Positions 15,601 through 24,333 of a stretch of 64,000 bases of DNA are shown here, piece by piece; the stretch's first letter is position 1, and each line of letters opens with the position of its first letter. Under the pieces are notes generated by a model that was given only the letters and a program-made list of their open reading frames with translations, was not told where the DNA came from and made no database searches. A program made the translations under genes and the position numbers. The stretch is from Capitulum mitella (lineage: Eukaryota > Arthropoda > Thecostraca > Pollicipedomorpha > Pollicipedidae), in assembly GCA_030062745.1 (NCBI GenBank), contig CP099840.1:13299437-13363436 (forward strand), written 5' to 3'.

Positions 15601-16442
15601 GAGCAGGAGTTTGTACTGTTCCAGACAGTGAACTACTCACAGCAGGAGTTCGTATCGTTCCAGACAGTGGACTCCTCACAGCAGGAAATCGTGCTGTTCA
15701 AGACAGTGGACTACTCACAGCAGGAGTTCGTATTGCTCCAGACAGTGGATTCCTCACAGCAGGAGTTTGCACTGTTCCAGACAGTGGAGTACTCACAGCA
15801 GGAGTTCGTATCGCTCCAGACACTGGGCGGCCGTGCGGCCGATGATGGGCGCGATGGTGCGCCACTGGGTCGGCATCAGCTTGGCCAGGTGCAGCAGCCG
15901 CTCGTCCTCCTCCCGGCTCCACTCCGTCTTCTTGATGCTCGGGTCCAGCCACTCGTACCAGCGCGCCTTGCACTGTTTGGCCGACTTGCGGTGCAGCAGG
16001 GAGGCGATACGCGACCACTGGTTCTTGCCATACTTCATGACGGCCGCCTTCAGGATCTCGTCCTGCGTCAGATCCGGGCATTTCACGGGCCGCAATAATG
16101 TCAGGTCACATGCAGGCAAACAGCCAACCCATGACTTTTACGGCAAAAAAGAGGAGTAGACGTGACCAGTTCTGAGGTTTGGAGGTATTTAGAGCAATCT
16201 GGGATACAAAAAAGCTGCCTGCATACCATTTCCATCAAACAATGCTCATAGTCTATACCCAATCCATGAGCTACACTTATCTGGTGTGTCAAAAAGCAGC
16301 CCTAAGGCAGTCAAAAAATGACTGCTTACATAGTGTATCCACCACACAATGCTTATTGTTTATATCTAATCCATCAGCTAAACACAGCTAGACTCACCTC
16401 TGTATTTCGCCATATTCCTCCTTTGATGAAAACTCTTGGCAT
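6602..16442 (-). CDS. CDC5L: CDC5L, Myb-domain pre-mRNA splicing factor, complete
   Basis: CDC5L is a core subunit of the PRP19/NineTeen complex of the nuclear spliceosome. Fourteen coding exons on the minus strand join in phase: 16442-16398, 16062-15797, 15203-15076, 13389-13058, 12436-12302, 11806-11633, 11235-11067, 10352-10210, 9807-9508, 9048-8893, 8558-8451, 7952-7786, 7173-7038 and 6709-6602 (TAG). The total is 788 residues; the human protein is about 802. The start [15 protein letters not shown] is the family N-terminus. Two Myb repeats fill residues 1-105, with Trp at 11, 31, 50, 53, 63 and 82. Then come the [19 protein letters not shown] block, an Arg/Lys-rich helix with likely nuclear signals, TP-rich motifs ([23 protein letters not shown]), [11 protein letters not shown], and a C-terminal coiled coil ([20 protein letters not shown] onward). 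Splice sites are ordinary GT-AG. Several introns hold minisatellites touching splice sites. A 5' non-coding exon may lie upstream. It is intact with no frameshift. Confidence 0.97.
6717..6962. repeat. 30-bp minisatellite in the last CDC5L intron
   Basis: About eight units near CAGAGGACGGCCAGTCAGAC plus GGCTGACCCA start 8 bp from the acceptor of the last CDC5L exon. On the gene strand each unit carries a pyrimidine run followed by CAG, loosely similar to the true acceptor. Confidence 0.85.
10370..10790. repeat. Degenerate minisatellite in CDC5L intron 7
   Basis: Many units of about 28-36 bp are built on GTCAGCCAGGGACCGACACA with CGG-ACC variants. The array begins about 20 bp from the acceptor of the exon starting at 10352. 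No exon sequence is included. Confidence 0.75.
11420..11649 (-). repeat. About 30-bp array duplicating the exon 6 donor of CDC5L
   Basis: On the gene strand about eight diverged units repeat the last coding bases of the exon plus its donor, of the form CGACAGGGTGCTGCAG then GTRCGTCA. The true donor is at 11633/11632 (GTGCGT). A copy near 11475 reads CTGCAG then GTACGT and looks as good as the real one. Confidence 0.75.
13390..15075 (-). other. CDC5L intron 3
   Basis: This 1.7-kb intron holds no recognised gene. From 13700 to 14060 it is rich in TGACCT/AGGTCA half-sites, including the overlapping run AGGTCAGGTCAGGTACCTGA. It also holds a G-run near 13590 and G/C-runs near 14720 and 14745. Confidence 0.6.
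15592..15825 (-). repeat. 39-bp array duplicating the exon 2 donor of CDC5L
   Basis: Six consecutive 39-bp units. On the gene strand each repeats the end of exon 2, encoding a [12 protein letters not shown] peptide, and then the donor. The true exon end is at 15797 (CTGCT then GTGAGT). Four of the other five units keep GTGAG(T/G); the most distal has CTGAGT. The unit length is a multiple of three, and each donor's TGA is in frame, so using a distal donor would add a premature stop. Confidence 0.9.
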
Positions 16443-22122: not shown

Positions 22123-24333
22123 ATGGCTGCCAGAAGCCTTCCAAATATTCTCATCACAGGTATGATCCAGCAACCAGCATGCATCCCCAGTTTTAGCATT
22201 TCACTGTATTTAGAGCTAAAATTTCCATTCCCAGGATGAAATGATACAAGCAACCATCAGTTCAAGCCATGCATGTAAAATTCGGAGAAATATTTGTCTT
22301 GAAGGTTGGCATTCCCTAATATGTGAAGTCTTGAAGTTATATTTTGTGTGGTTTCTTCTATGTCAGTGTACCCACCTTTTATTGTGAAAGATTTCTCAAC
22401 ATTATTAAGAAGTCATGTGGCATGTCTTAAGCAATTTTTTTGTAAACAAGTGGTGAGATCCTTTGTTGTGACTGTGTTGGGAGCATCAGCAGTGCTGTAT
22501 AATGTGAGTTTTGCATTGACAGTGTGTTGGCAGTACTGAGGAGTCCTTTTTTGTGGCCATGTTTGAGAGTGTTGGTAGGGCTGTTGGGGGGGTTTGTGTT
22601 AGCTGTGTGTAAGCAGTGCTGAGAGGTCTGGCTGACTGCAGGTACCCCTGGTGTAGGCAAGTCGACCACCTGTGAGCAACTGGCCGACGCCTCGGGCCTC
22701 CAGTGGGTCAACGTTGGCGATGTGGCGGAGCAGAACGACTGCCTGGACGAGTTTGACGAGGAGTACGGCTGTCGCGTGCTCAACGAGGACAAGGTGCGCT
22801 CCGCTGTGGTTCGCGCTGCATTCGTGCTCCCTTGTTCATGGCAGCCCTGAAAATGAACAGCAGTGGCAGTCCATAGACACTGGATGATGTGAGCTGTGCA
22901 TGGTCATTGTAGCAATGGTGTCCTTGTGTGTGCAGTTACTGAATGAGTTAGAGCTGCACGTCGTCATTGTGGCAGTTGTGCTGTTCCGCCTACAGCTGTT
23001 GAATCAGTCTGAGCTGTGCATGGTCATTGTGGCAATCATGCCATTTTGTCCACAGCTGCTAGAAGAGTTAGGGCTGAGCATGATCATTGTGGTAATCACA
23101 CCATTCTGTCCACAACTACAGGATGAGTTAGATCTGTGAATGGTCATTGTTGCAATCATGCCATTCTCTCCACATCTACTCGATGAGTTAGAGCTGCGCA
23201 TGTTCGGTGTGATGGTTGTGCCATTCTGTCCACAGTTGCTGGATGAGTTAGAGCCGCGCATGGTCGGCGGAGGCAACATCGTCGATTATCACGGCTGCGA
23301 TTTCTTCCCGGAGCGCTGGTTCGACATTGTGTTCGTTCTCCGCACCGACAATAAGCTGCTCTACGACCGGCTGGCAAAACGGTGAGTGCCGACTCGGACG
23401 GTCGGCCGGCCCGAGCAGGGCCGGACCGGAGTGGCCGGGCAAGGCCGGAGTGGCTAGATTGGGTCCAAGTGCTGGGGCCCGACCGGAGTGGTTAGATCGA
23501 ACTGGAGCGTTGTGGTTTGACCGAAGCGGTGGAGTTGGCTCGGAGTGGTGGTGTCGGACTGGGGTGGATAGGTCAGGATGGAGTGGTGGGGCCTGACAGG
23601 AGTGGCTGGTGTCGGAGCGGAGTGGTTCAGCTGGACTTCAGTTAGGTCGGACCGGATTGGTGAAGCGGGACCAGAGTAGTTAAGTCGGCCGGGAGTGGTG
23701 AGGTCGGACCGGAGTGGTTGGGTTCGATCAGAGTGGTCACATATGAACAGATTGGTCGGGTCGGACGAGATTGGTCGGCTGGCCTGAGCAGGGCTGGGCC
23801 GAGGTGGTCAGGTCGAGCCTAGGGGATTCGGTCGAAAAGGAGTGGCCGGGTCAGAGACTCCCAAGTCGTCTTTTGATTGAGCATTGATCCCTTTGTTCGC
23901 AGTTTGTTTGGCCCGAGAATCAGCATTGCTGGTTTGAATTAACTGACATGGGTACGAACTTGATATGATATAATGAACTGGATATAAATATGGATACTAC
24001 AAGTGTGTTCTCTCGGCTGTTCGCTGGTGAATACATGGTATTGGTAGCCGAGTGTTTGTGTGCGGGGCGCGATGACGGCTGGGTGGTTGGCGGTGCGGTG
24101 ACCACTACTCCGCTGACCATGTTCCCCTCGGCAGCGGCTACTCGGGCAAGAAGCTGGAAGAGAACATACAGTGCGAGATATTCCAGACCCTTCTGGACGA
24201 GGCGCGCGGCGCCTACGCCACCGAGATCGTGCACGAGCTGCCGAGCAACACGCCCGACGAGGTCGAACAGAACGTGGAGCGCATCTGCCAGTGGATCGCT
24301 GCCTGGAAACTGAACAGCGGCTCGCCCTCTTAG
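22123..24333 (+). CDS. AK6: AK6, adenylate kinase isoenzyme 6, complete
   Basis: AK6 (CINAP/Fap7 family) is a small nuclear nucleotide kinase/ATPase, known in other eukaryotes for a role in 18S rRNA maturation. Four coding exons join in phase: 22123-22159, 22642-22793, 23236-23381 and 24135-24333 (TAG). They give 177 residues; the human protein has 172. The P-loop GTPGVGKST is residues 13-21, split by the first coding intron. INVGD-like [12 protein letters not shown], the acidic DEFDEEYGC, the family signature [40 protein letters not shown] and NIQCEIFQ follow in order, then [21 protein letters not shown] further non-coding 5' exon is implied. The acceptor of the third coding exon sits at the end of a 60-bp tandem array of decoy acceptors. 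It is intact. Confidence 0.97.
22879..23270 (+). repeat. 60-bp array duplicating an AK6 acceptor and exon start
   Basis: About six and a half units of exactly 60 bp. Each has a pyrimidine tract, (C)CACAG and then a copy of the exon start (CTGCTGGATGAGTTAGAGCT type). The true exon starts at 23236. Decoy CAGs survive at 22935, 22995 and 23055; the next two units read CACAA and CACAT. Any of the three decoys would keep frame but reach an in-frame TGA at 23137-23139. Confidence 0.92.
23385..23860. repeat. Short-unit minisatellite after the AK6 third-exon donor
   Basis: Degenerate units of about 16-25 bp around GGTCGGACCGGAGTGGTT start within a few bases of the donor at 23382. They contain no exon copy. 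Confidence 0.8.

Follow-up and report, generated by a model that had tools for sequence, protein, structure and literature searches.

CpG dinucleotides are unevenly distributed around the divergently oriented genes CDC5L and AK6 of the barnacle Capitulum mitella, where two blocks containing almost none of them flank a short island of normal CpG content. Here we describe this arrangement in a 64,000-nucleotide stretch of contig CP099840.1 (C2:13299437-13363436, referred to as the window), and report similar blocks at other genes of this genome, which comprises 477 Mb in 16 contigs.

Two depleted blocks at the CDC5L and AK6 genes

CDC5L was named from a structural match to one of its exons (Table 1), with Myb repeats found in coding exon 2 (Pfam PF00249, 1.6e-24 on 15796-16137), and AK6 was identified by a protein assembled from open reading frames (ORFs) of the window that matches PDB entry 1rkb (E 9e-63). 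In 500-bp bins, the CpG observed/expected ratio (o/e) is 0.00-0.15 across 16501-19500 and 0.00-0.10 across 20501-22500, with 0.92 for the window as a whole. Block limits were set by a two-state CpG segmentation. At the background rate, block 1 on the CDC5L side would hold ~136 CpGs and block 2 on the AK6 side ~94, against the nine and four observed (Poisson P ~6e-46 and ~6e-35, respectively; survivors include 17333, 18517 and 21520), and no segment was called in any of five mononucleotide shuffles of the window. A sequence-only reading of this DNA had described near-total CpG loss in two blocks, a CpG-normal interval between them starting at 19.7 kb, and normal sequence everywhere outside. The loss is borne out by the segmentation, the Poisson probabilities and the sliding-window check, which in its 500-bp form recovers both blocks. 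The interval is indeed CpG-normal, although it begins slightly earlier, at 19478, and the rest of the window is normal apart from the only further segment called (63572-63923, 352 bp). This CpG-poor segment (2 CG, GC content 0.54) lies near the window end, without a gene assignment.

The start codons, at 16442 (- strand) for CDC5L and 22123 (+ strand) for AK6, leave about 3.0 of the 3.3 kb of block 1 and about 1.75 of the 2.3 kb of block 2 on the 5' side of the coding sequence, the rest of each block being taken up by coding exon 1 and the intron that follows. In AK6, an acceptor site at 22114, eight bases ahead of the ATG, implies an upstream noncoding exon and supports an intron in the 5' untranslated region (UTR). 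The later introns of both genes, and of the akirin gene described below, are CpG-normal. The earlier placement of the blocks over the 5' ends of divergent housekeeping genes thus holds, with a narrower extent than gene bodies at large: they lie mostly before the start codons and reach to about coding exon 2. Tandem arrays (22891-23265 and 15581-15826, with 60-bp and 39-bp units) lie shortly past the second coding exons of AK6 and CDC5L, respectively, immediately beyond the 3' edges of both blocks.

From its position, the island between the blocks is presumed to be a bidirectional promoter common to CDC5L and AK6, whose first exons would be noncoding. It is improbable that the blocks instead represent a single old methylated tract into which the island was later inserted. 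In its favor, repeats of normal CpG content adjoin or separate blocks at two loci considered below (NMD3 and C4:3993601-4001000), and part of the island itself (19534-19661) is repeat-derived, the five CpGs of this piece in a copy at L012 reading CpA in the island. However, this 128-bp piece is all of the island that matched a copy in ~284 kb taken from elsewhere, comprising L001-L028 and the flanks of the window, and the island of another divergent pair, akirin/ERGIC, contains the akirin start codon.

Table 1. Features of the window at and around the CpG-depleted blocks
Feature	Position	Strand	Description
CpG-depleted block 1, CDC5L side	16166..19477		3312 bp, 9 CpG, o/e 0.07, GC 0.41; segmentation
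CpG-normal island (presumed promoter)	19478..20369		892 bp, 34 CpG, o/e 0.95
CpG-depleted block 2, AK6 side	20370..22658		2289 bp, 4 CpG, o/e 0.04, GC 0.41; segmentation
CDC5L coding exon 1	16398..16442	-	15 residues; inside block 1; one CpG (16408); from ORF and sequence reading
CDC5L coding exon 2, Myb repeats	15800..16062 (low end approximate)	-	CpG-normal; splice site read from sequence
ORF with a further CDC5L exon	12977..13684	-	CpG-normal; PDB 5mqf, E 2e-45, basis of the gene name
AK6 exon with start codon (22123)	22115..22159	+	12 residues; inside block 2
AK6 second coding exon (GTPGVGKST...)	22642..22793	+	CpG from 22663 onward; block 2 stops at exon start
Old repeat copies in block 1	17892..18504		Used in decay test; further piece at 19283-19325
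1.2-kb repeat family copy in CDC5L gene	13576..14794		CpG-normal; outside block

CpG decay in repeat copies

Pooled over nine blocks of at least 900 bp, the base-corrected CpG ratio (rho) is 0.09, and TpG and CpA are raised to 1.58 and 1.48, bearing out the abundance of these dinucleotides noted in the sequence-only reading; outside the blocks, CpG stands at 0.98. Old repeat copies within block 1 allow the loss to be followed base by base, in five alignments with copies that lie in CpG-normal sequence. Block 1 retains none of the 26 CpGs of the outside copies; 22 have become TpG or CpA by a single transition, while 26 of 41 GpCs, serving as a control in the same alignments, are kept. Counted by distinct block 1 position, the figures are 0 of 16 for CpG versus 13 of 23 for GpC (Fisher P 3e-4). 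A first count over ten alignments gave 0 of 35 CpGs kept (30 single transitions, four other changes and one gap) and 49 of 73 GpCs; five of these alignments were set aside because four were to L007, which is itself depleted, and one lay inside the island. When the nine blocks of at least 900 bp served as queries, a separate count resting on only four non-overlapping alignments of at least 80 bp, two of 23 CpGs were kept (17 single transitions) and 20 of 26 GpCs.

Copies that both lie outside blocks behave differently. In 64 such alignments, sorted into four identity bins, the fraction of CpGs kept is 0.49, 0.60, 0.71 and 0.91, versus 0.51, 0.62, 0.73 and 0.92 for GpC. CpG is thus lost no faster than GpC between outside copies, so no methylation scar is seen in the sampled sequence beyond the blocks, including its repeats, and transposons and other non-target DNA show no excess CpG decay in the sample, as mosaic arthropod methylation predicts. 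The CpGs of the block 1 repeats were lost mainly through single transitions to TpG or CpA, and the decay of CpG to TpG proposed from the sequence is confirmed on repeat copies with both the GpC and the outside-outside control.

These counts bear on two other ways of emptying a block of CpG. Long first introns might merely be AT-rich and CpG-poor, through composition or selection and without methylation-driven mutation; the blocks are mostly noncoding, and their GC content is 0.34-0.43, compared with 0.52 outside. Yet this is very unlikely, given that the base-corrected CpG ratio of 0.09 stands beside 1.11 for GpC, that in the repeat copies CpG is lost by transition while most GpC survives, and that CpG content is normal in the later introns of CDC5L, AK6 and akirin. 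The least probable alternative is cytosine deamination beyond CpG (AID/APOBEC-like, or R-loop or transcription-associated damage near promoters): R-loops can form just downstream of promoters, where the blocks presumably sit, but CpG alone is strongly depleted (TC 0.87, CC 1.07, CT 1.02, GC 1.11), neither an equal C-to-T change in other contexts nor strand asymmetry was seen in the blocks, and the roughly equal rise of TpG and CpA indicates no strong strand bias.

Blocks at other genes

Recurrence was assessed in 20 roughly evenly spaced 10-kb pieces of contigs C2 and C4, with the block-bearing pieces extended. Blocks cover 3.9% of the bases in the 20 samples. Among 264 1-kb intervals drawn from these samples and the window, nine have an o/e below 0.1, none falls between 0.1 and 0.3, and 255 reach at least 0.3; the distribution has two separate modes. 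At the divergent pair akirin/ERGIC, blocks of 3703 and 2335 bp flank a 1055-bp island, the one holding the akirin start codon. ERGIC was identified by PF13850 (4e-13), and the neighboring gene, for which no family model matched, we take to be akirin from its sequence. The exon found for MRPL19 (PDB, E 2e-6) has a 3393-bp block upstream of it, and one of 2192 bp lies 5' of the start of NMD3 (PF04981, 8e-52), with a CpG-normal repeat in between. Further blocks occur at an adenylate kinase gene (L032), over its first exons, and at a DNMT2-like gene (L035, 992 bp); among eight ADK loci (L001-L008), L007 lies largely within a block and L004 has a block of 490 bp.

The assignable blocks of the sample all lie at the 5' ends of genes, so depletion follows gene boundaries elsewhere in this sample as well, and one tract adjoins an unnamed gene. 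This tract (C4:3993828-4000927) begins immediately next to a candidate exon (- strand, ~C4:3993601-3993817), on its 5' side, and may be one first-intron tract interrupted by a CpG-normal repeat copy and a retrotransposon stretch. Its portion C4:3996653-4000927 was at one point regarded as an exception, a methylated retrotransposon of the kind lacking long terminal repeats (non-LTR), an interpretation dropped once the adjacent 2.4 kb showed the candidate exon and block; the Exo_endo_phos_2 match in this portion is weak, below its cut-off.

Gene classes were compared in small samples. For the first six proteasome genes by best E-value among 25 matches, 3.3 kb were read each, including the 3 kb that precede the 5'-most match, and three genes (L039, L040 and L041) have a block of at least 500 bp upstream; at L039, two blocks flank a CpG-normal stretch. 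Random 3.3-kb intervals contain a block in 5 of 60 cases. No block was found in the 2.7 kb upstream of each of the first five of 123 homeobox matches, nor within ~3 kb upstream of any of the window's five cuticle genes (PF00379), and an integrin-alpha-like gene with weak matches, on the - strand at ~25-35 kb of the window, lies in CpG-normal sequence. The direction is consistent: several housekeeping genes carry blocks and the tested tissue-specific or developmental genes do not, in small samples defined by gene class. The targeting of constitutive genes suggested by the sequence-only reading agrees with blocks at CDC5L, AK6, akirin, ERGIC, MRPL19, NMD3, an adenylate kinase and half of the sampled proteasome genes, and with their absence from the homeobox and cuticle genes. 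The latter are five closely alike Chitin_bind_4 protein genes that follow one another on the + strand at 43425-61094, in CpG-normal sequence.

Those 3' edges of blocks that could be placed lie near exons. The edge coincides with an exon within ~16 bp in AK6 and L041, precedes the coding exon 2 acceptor by 104 bp in CDC5L and the exon by ~140 bp in L040, and falls ~100 bp inside it in L039, where the first ~100 bp of the exon are CpG-free and the remainder is CpG-rich; coding sequence therefore decays too, and the edge is sharp. In the adenylate kinase gene, the edge as called depends on the context supplied and varies between exons 2 and 3. Given the range from ~140 bp before to ~100 bp inside an exon, the idea of an exact boundary at splice sites was dropped. 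The pattern also departs from exon targeting that peaks at exon 2: CpG content is normal in coding exon 2 of both AK6 and CDC5L, and the blocks consist mainly of noncoding sequence.

A 1.2-kb repeat family has one copy in the CDC5L gene (Table 1) and others at L015, L012, L028, L024 and L049+L031, and its copies adjoin or split blocks at NMD3 and at C4:3993601-4001000. Exact matches to (TTAGG)6 number 1826 forward and 1916 reverse genome-wide, overlapping ones counted, with none for the reversed-pattern control; the listed places are all on C1 (for example C1:12729619-12729849) and are short internal arrays, as if the arthropod telomere repeat had spread internally.

Germline methylation and known systems

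The genome encodes proteins that would make CpG methylation possible: catalytic exons of DNMT1 (PF00145; PDB DNMT1 match, E 1.5e-17), an ADD domain of the DNMT3 kind (ADD_DNMT3), SRA-domain exons at two loci and a Tet_JBP domain. Together with the decay of repeats and the gene-class pattern, this toolkit supports the germline-methylation interpretation made in the sequence-only reading, and the blocks are very probably scars left by CpG methylation in the germline, immediately downstream of the promoters of constitutive genes. The target would be narrower than gene bodies at large, being mainly noncoding sequence from the promoter to the second coding exon. The blocks would be best explained by the known mosaic germline methylation of arthropods, in a variant aimed mainly at noncoding first-intron sequence. 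DNMT1 and an SRA protein, probably with a DNMT3, would keep first-intron CpGs methylated in germ cells where the gene is active, and deamination of 5-methylcytosine to T would erode CpG until almost none is left. The common promoter would stay unmethylated, presumably through trimethylation of histone H3 at lysine 4 (H3K4me3) and bound factors, and early-elongation chromatin or splicing of the first intron may limit the methylase, as suggested by a 3' edge close to the second coding exon. With so few CpGs left in the blocks, the present function of methylation there may be slight.

Several observations weigh against this interpretation. No DNMT3 catalytic domain is among the four PF00145 matches in the genome, and PF00145 exons occur at only two loci, DNMT1 and a gene that we take to be DNMT2-like from its PF00145 match and a sequence motif. 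Half of the sampled proteasome genes lack a called block (none at L037 and L038, only bins near 0.28 at L042), so housekeeping status is not sufficient; the comparison of proteasome genes with random intervals gives a Fisher P of only 0.02, and the proteasome and homeobox samples cover just ~3 kb upstream of the matched exon. The blocks at NMD3, akirin, ERGIC and MRPL19 are linked to their genes by position, not by transcripts, and the candidate exon at ~C4:3993601-3993817 has no notable Pfam or PDB match, leaving its gene unnamed. L031:2343-3320 (C4:3998343-3999320), in the retrotransposon remnant between two depleted stretches, is CpG-normal and unexplained. Finally, little-diverged copies of the 1.2-kb family beside blocks at two genes keep 0.91 and 0.80 of consensus CpGs (GpC 0.90 and 0.88); four copies elsewhere keep a similar 0.62-1.00, and recent arrival and protection are candidate readings of the retention beside blocks.

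A more specific proposal, to which we give slightly less than an even chance, is that germline methylation in this lineage targets not exons but the first intron, from just past the promoter to roughly the second coding exon, with exon 2 as the boundary and landing transposons spared at first. If true, first-intron targeting would mean that gene-body methylation is distinct from the marking of exons and is linked to the zone of elongation close to the promoter. The scar permits a sequence-based test of the feature that marks the target, be it promoter distance, first-intron splicing or elongation chromatin.

Searches of an open library for barnacle DNA methylation brought up no methylome of a barnacle. 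The available text on other arthropods offers several points of comparison. Nasonia vitripennis, of the 5'-biased Hymenoptera type, resembles the present case in that methylation there favors constitutive genes, is strongest toward the 5' end and rarely affects transposons, as far as the accessible part of the report goes; it is exon-targeted with a peak at exon 2, however, and is low in 5' UTRs, at 3.0% of covered CpGs versus 35.5% in first coding exons, unlike the mostly noncoding scar seen here, which lies before the second coding exon and ends near it (PMC3794928). In the crustacean Daphnia pulex, the portion of the study available to us places 83% of highly methylated CpGs in exons, with exon 2 highest, the exonic ones nearly all in the first four exons and in genes with higher expression; coding exon 2 in the present case is instead at or near the CpG-normal edge (PMC6945601). 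The copepod Eurytemora carolleeae is likewise a crustacean in which past methylation was inferred from CpG o/e, and the sections at hand describe a unimodal low gene o/e, RNA-processing genes among the highest and DNMT3 as not annotated, whereas we find two modes, an ADD domain of the DNMT3 type, and depletion at proteasome genes and a splicing factor (PMC11706791). A survey across arthropods agrees that broadly expressed housekeeping genes are targeted; in its available text the majority of species are exon-biased, with little difference between exons and introns in P. hawaiensis and A. vulgare, and the mainly noncoding scar described here differs from that majority (PMC7343188). A near-complete, sharply bounded first-intron CpG scar, with no such scar between copies of transposons in the rest of the sample, thus contrasts with arthropod methylomes that, to the extent of these sources, are mostly exon-biased.

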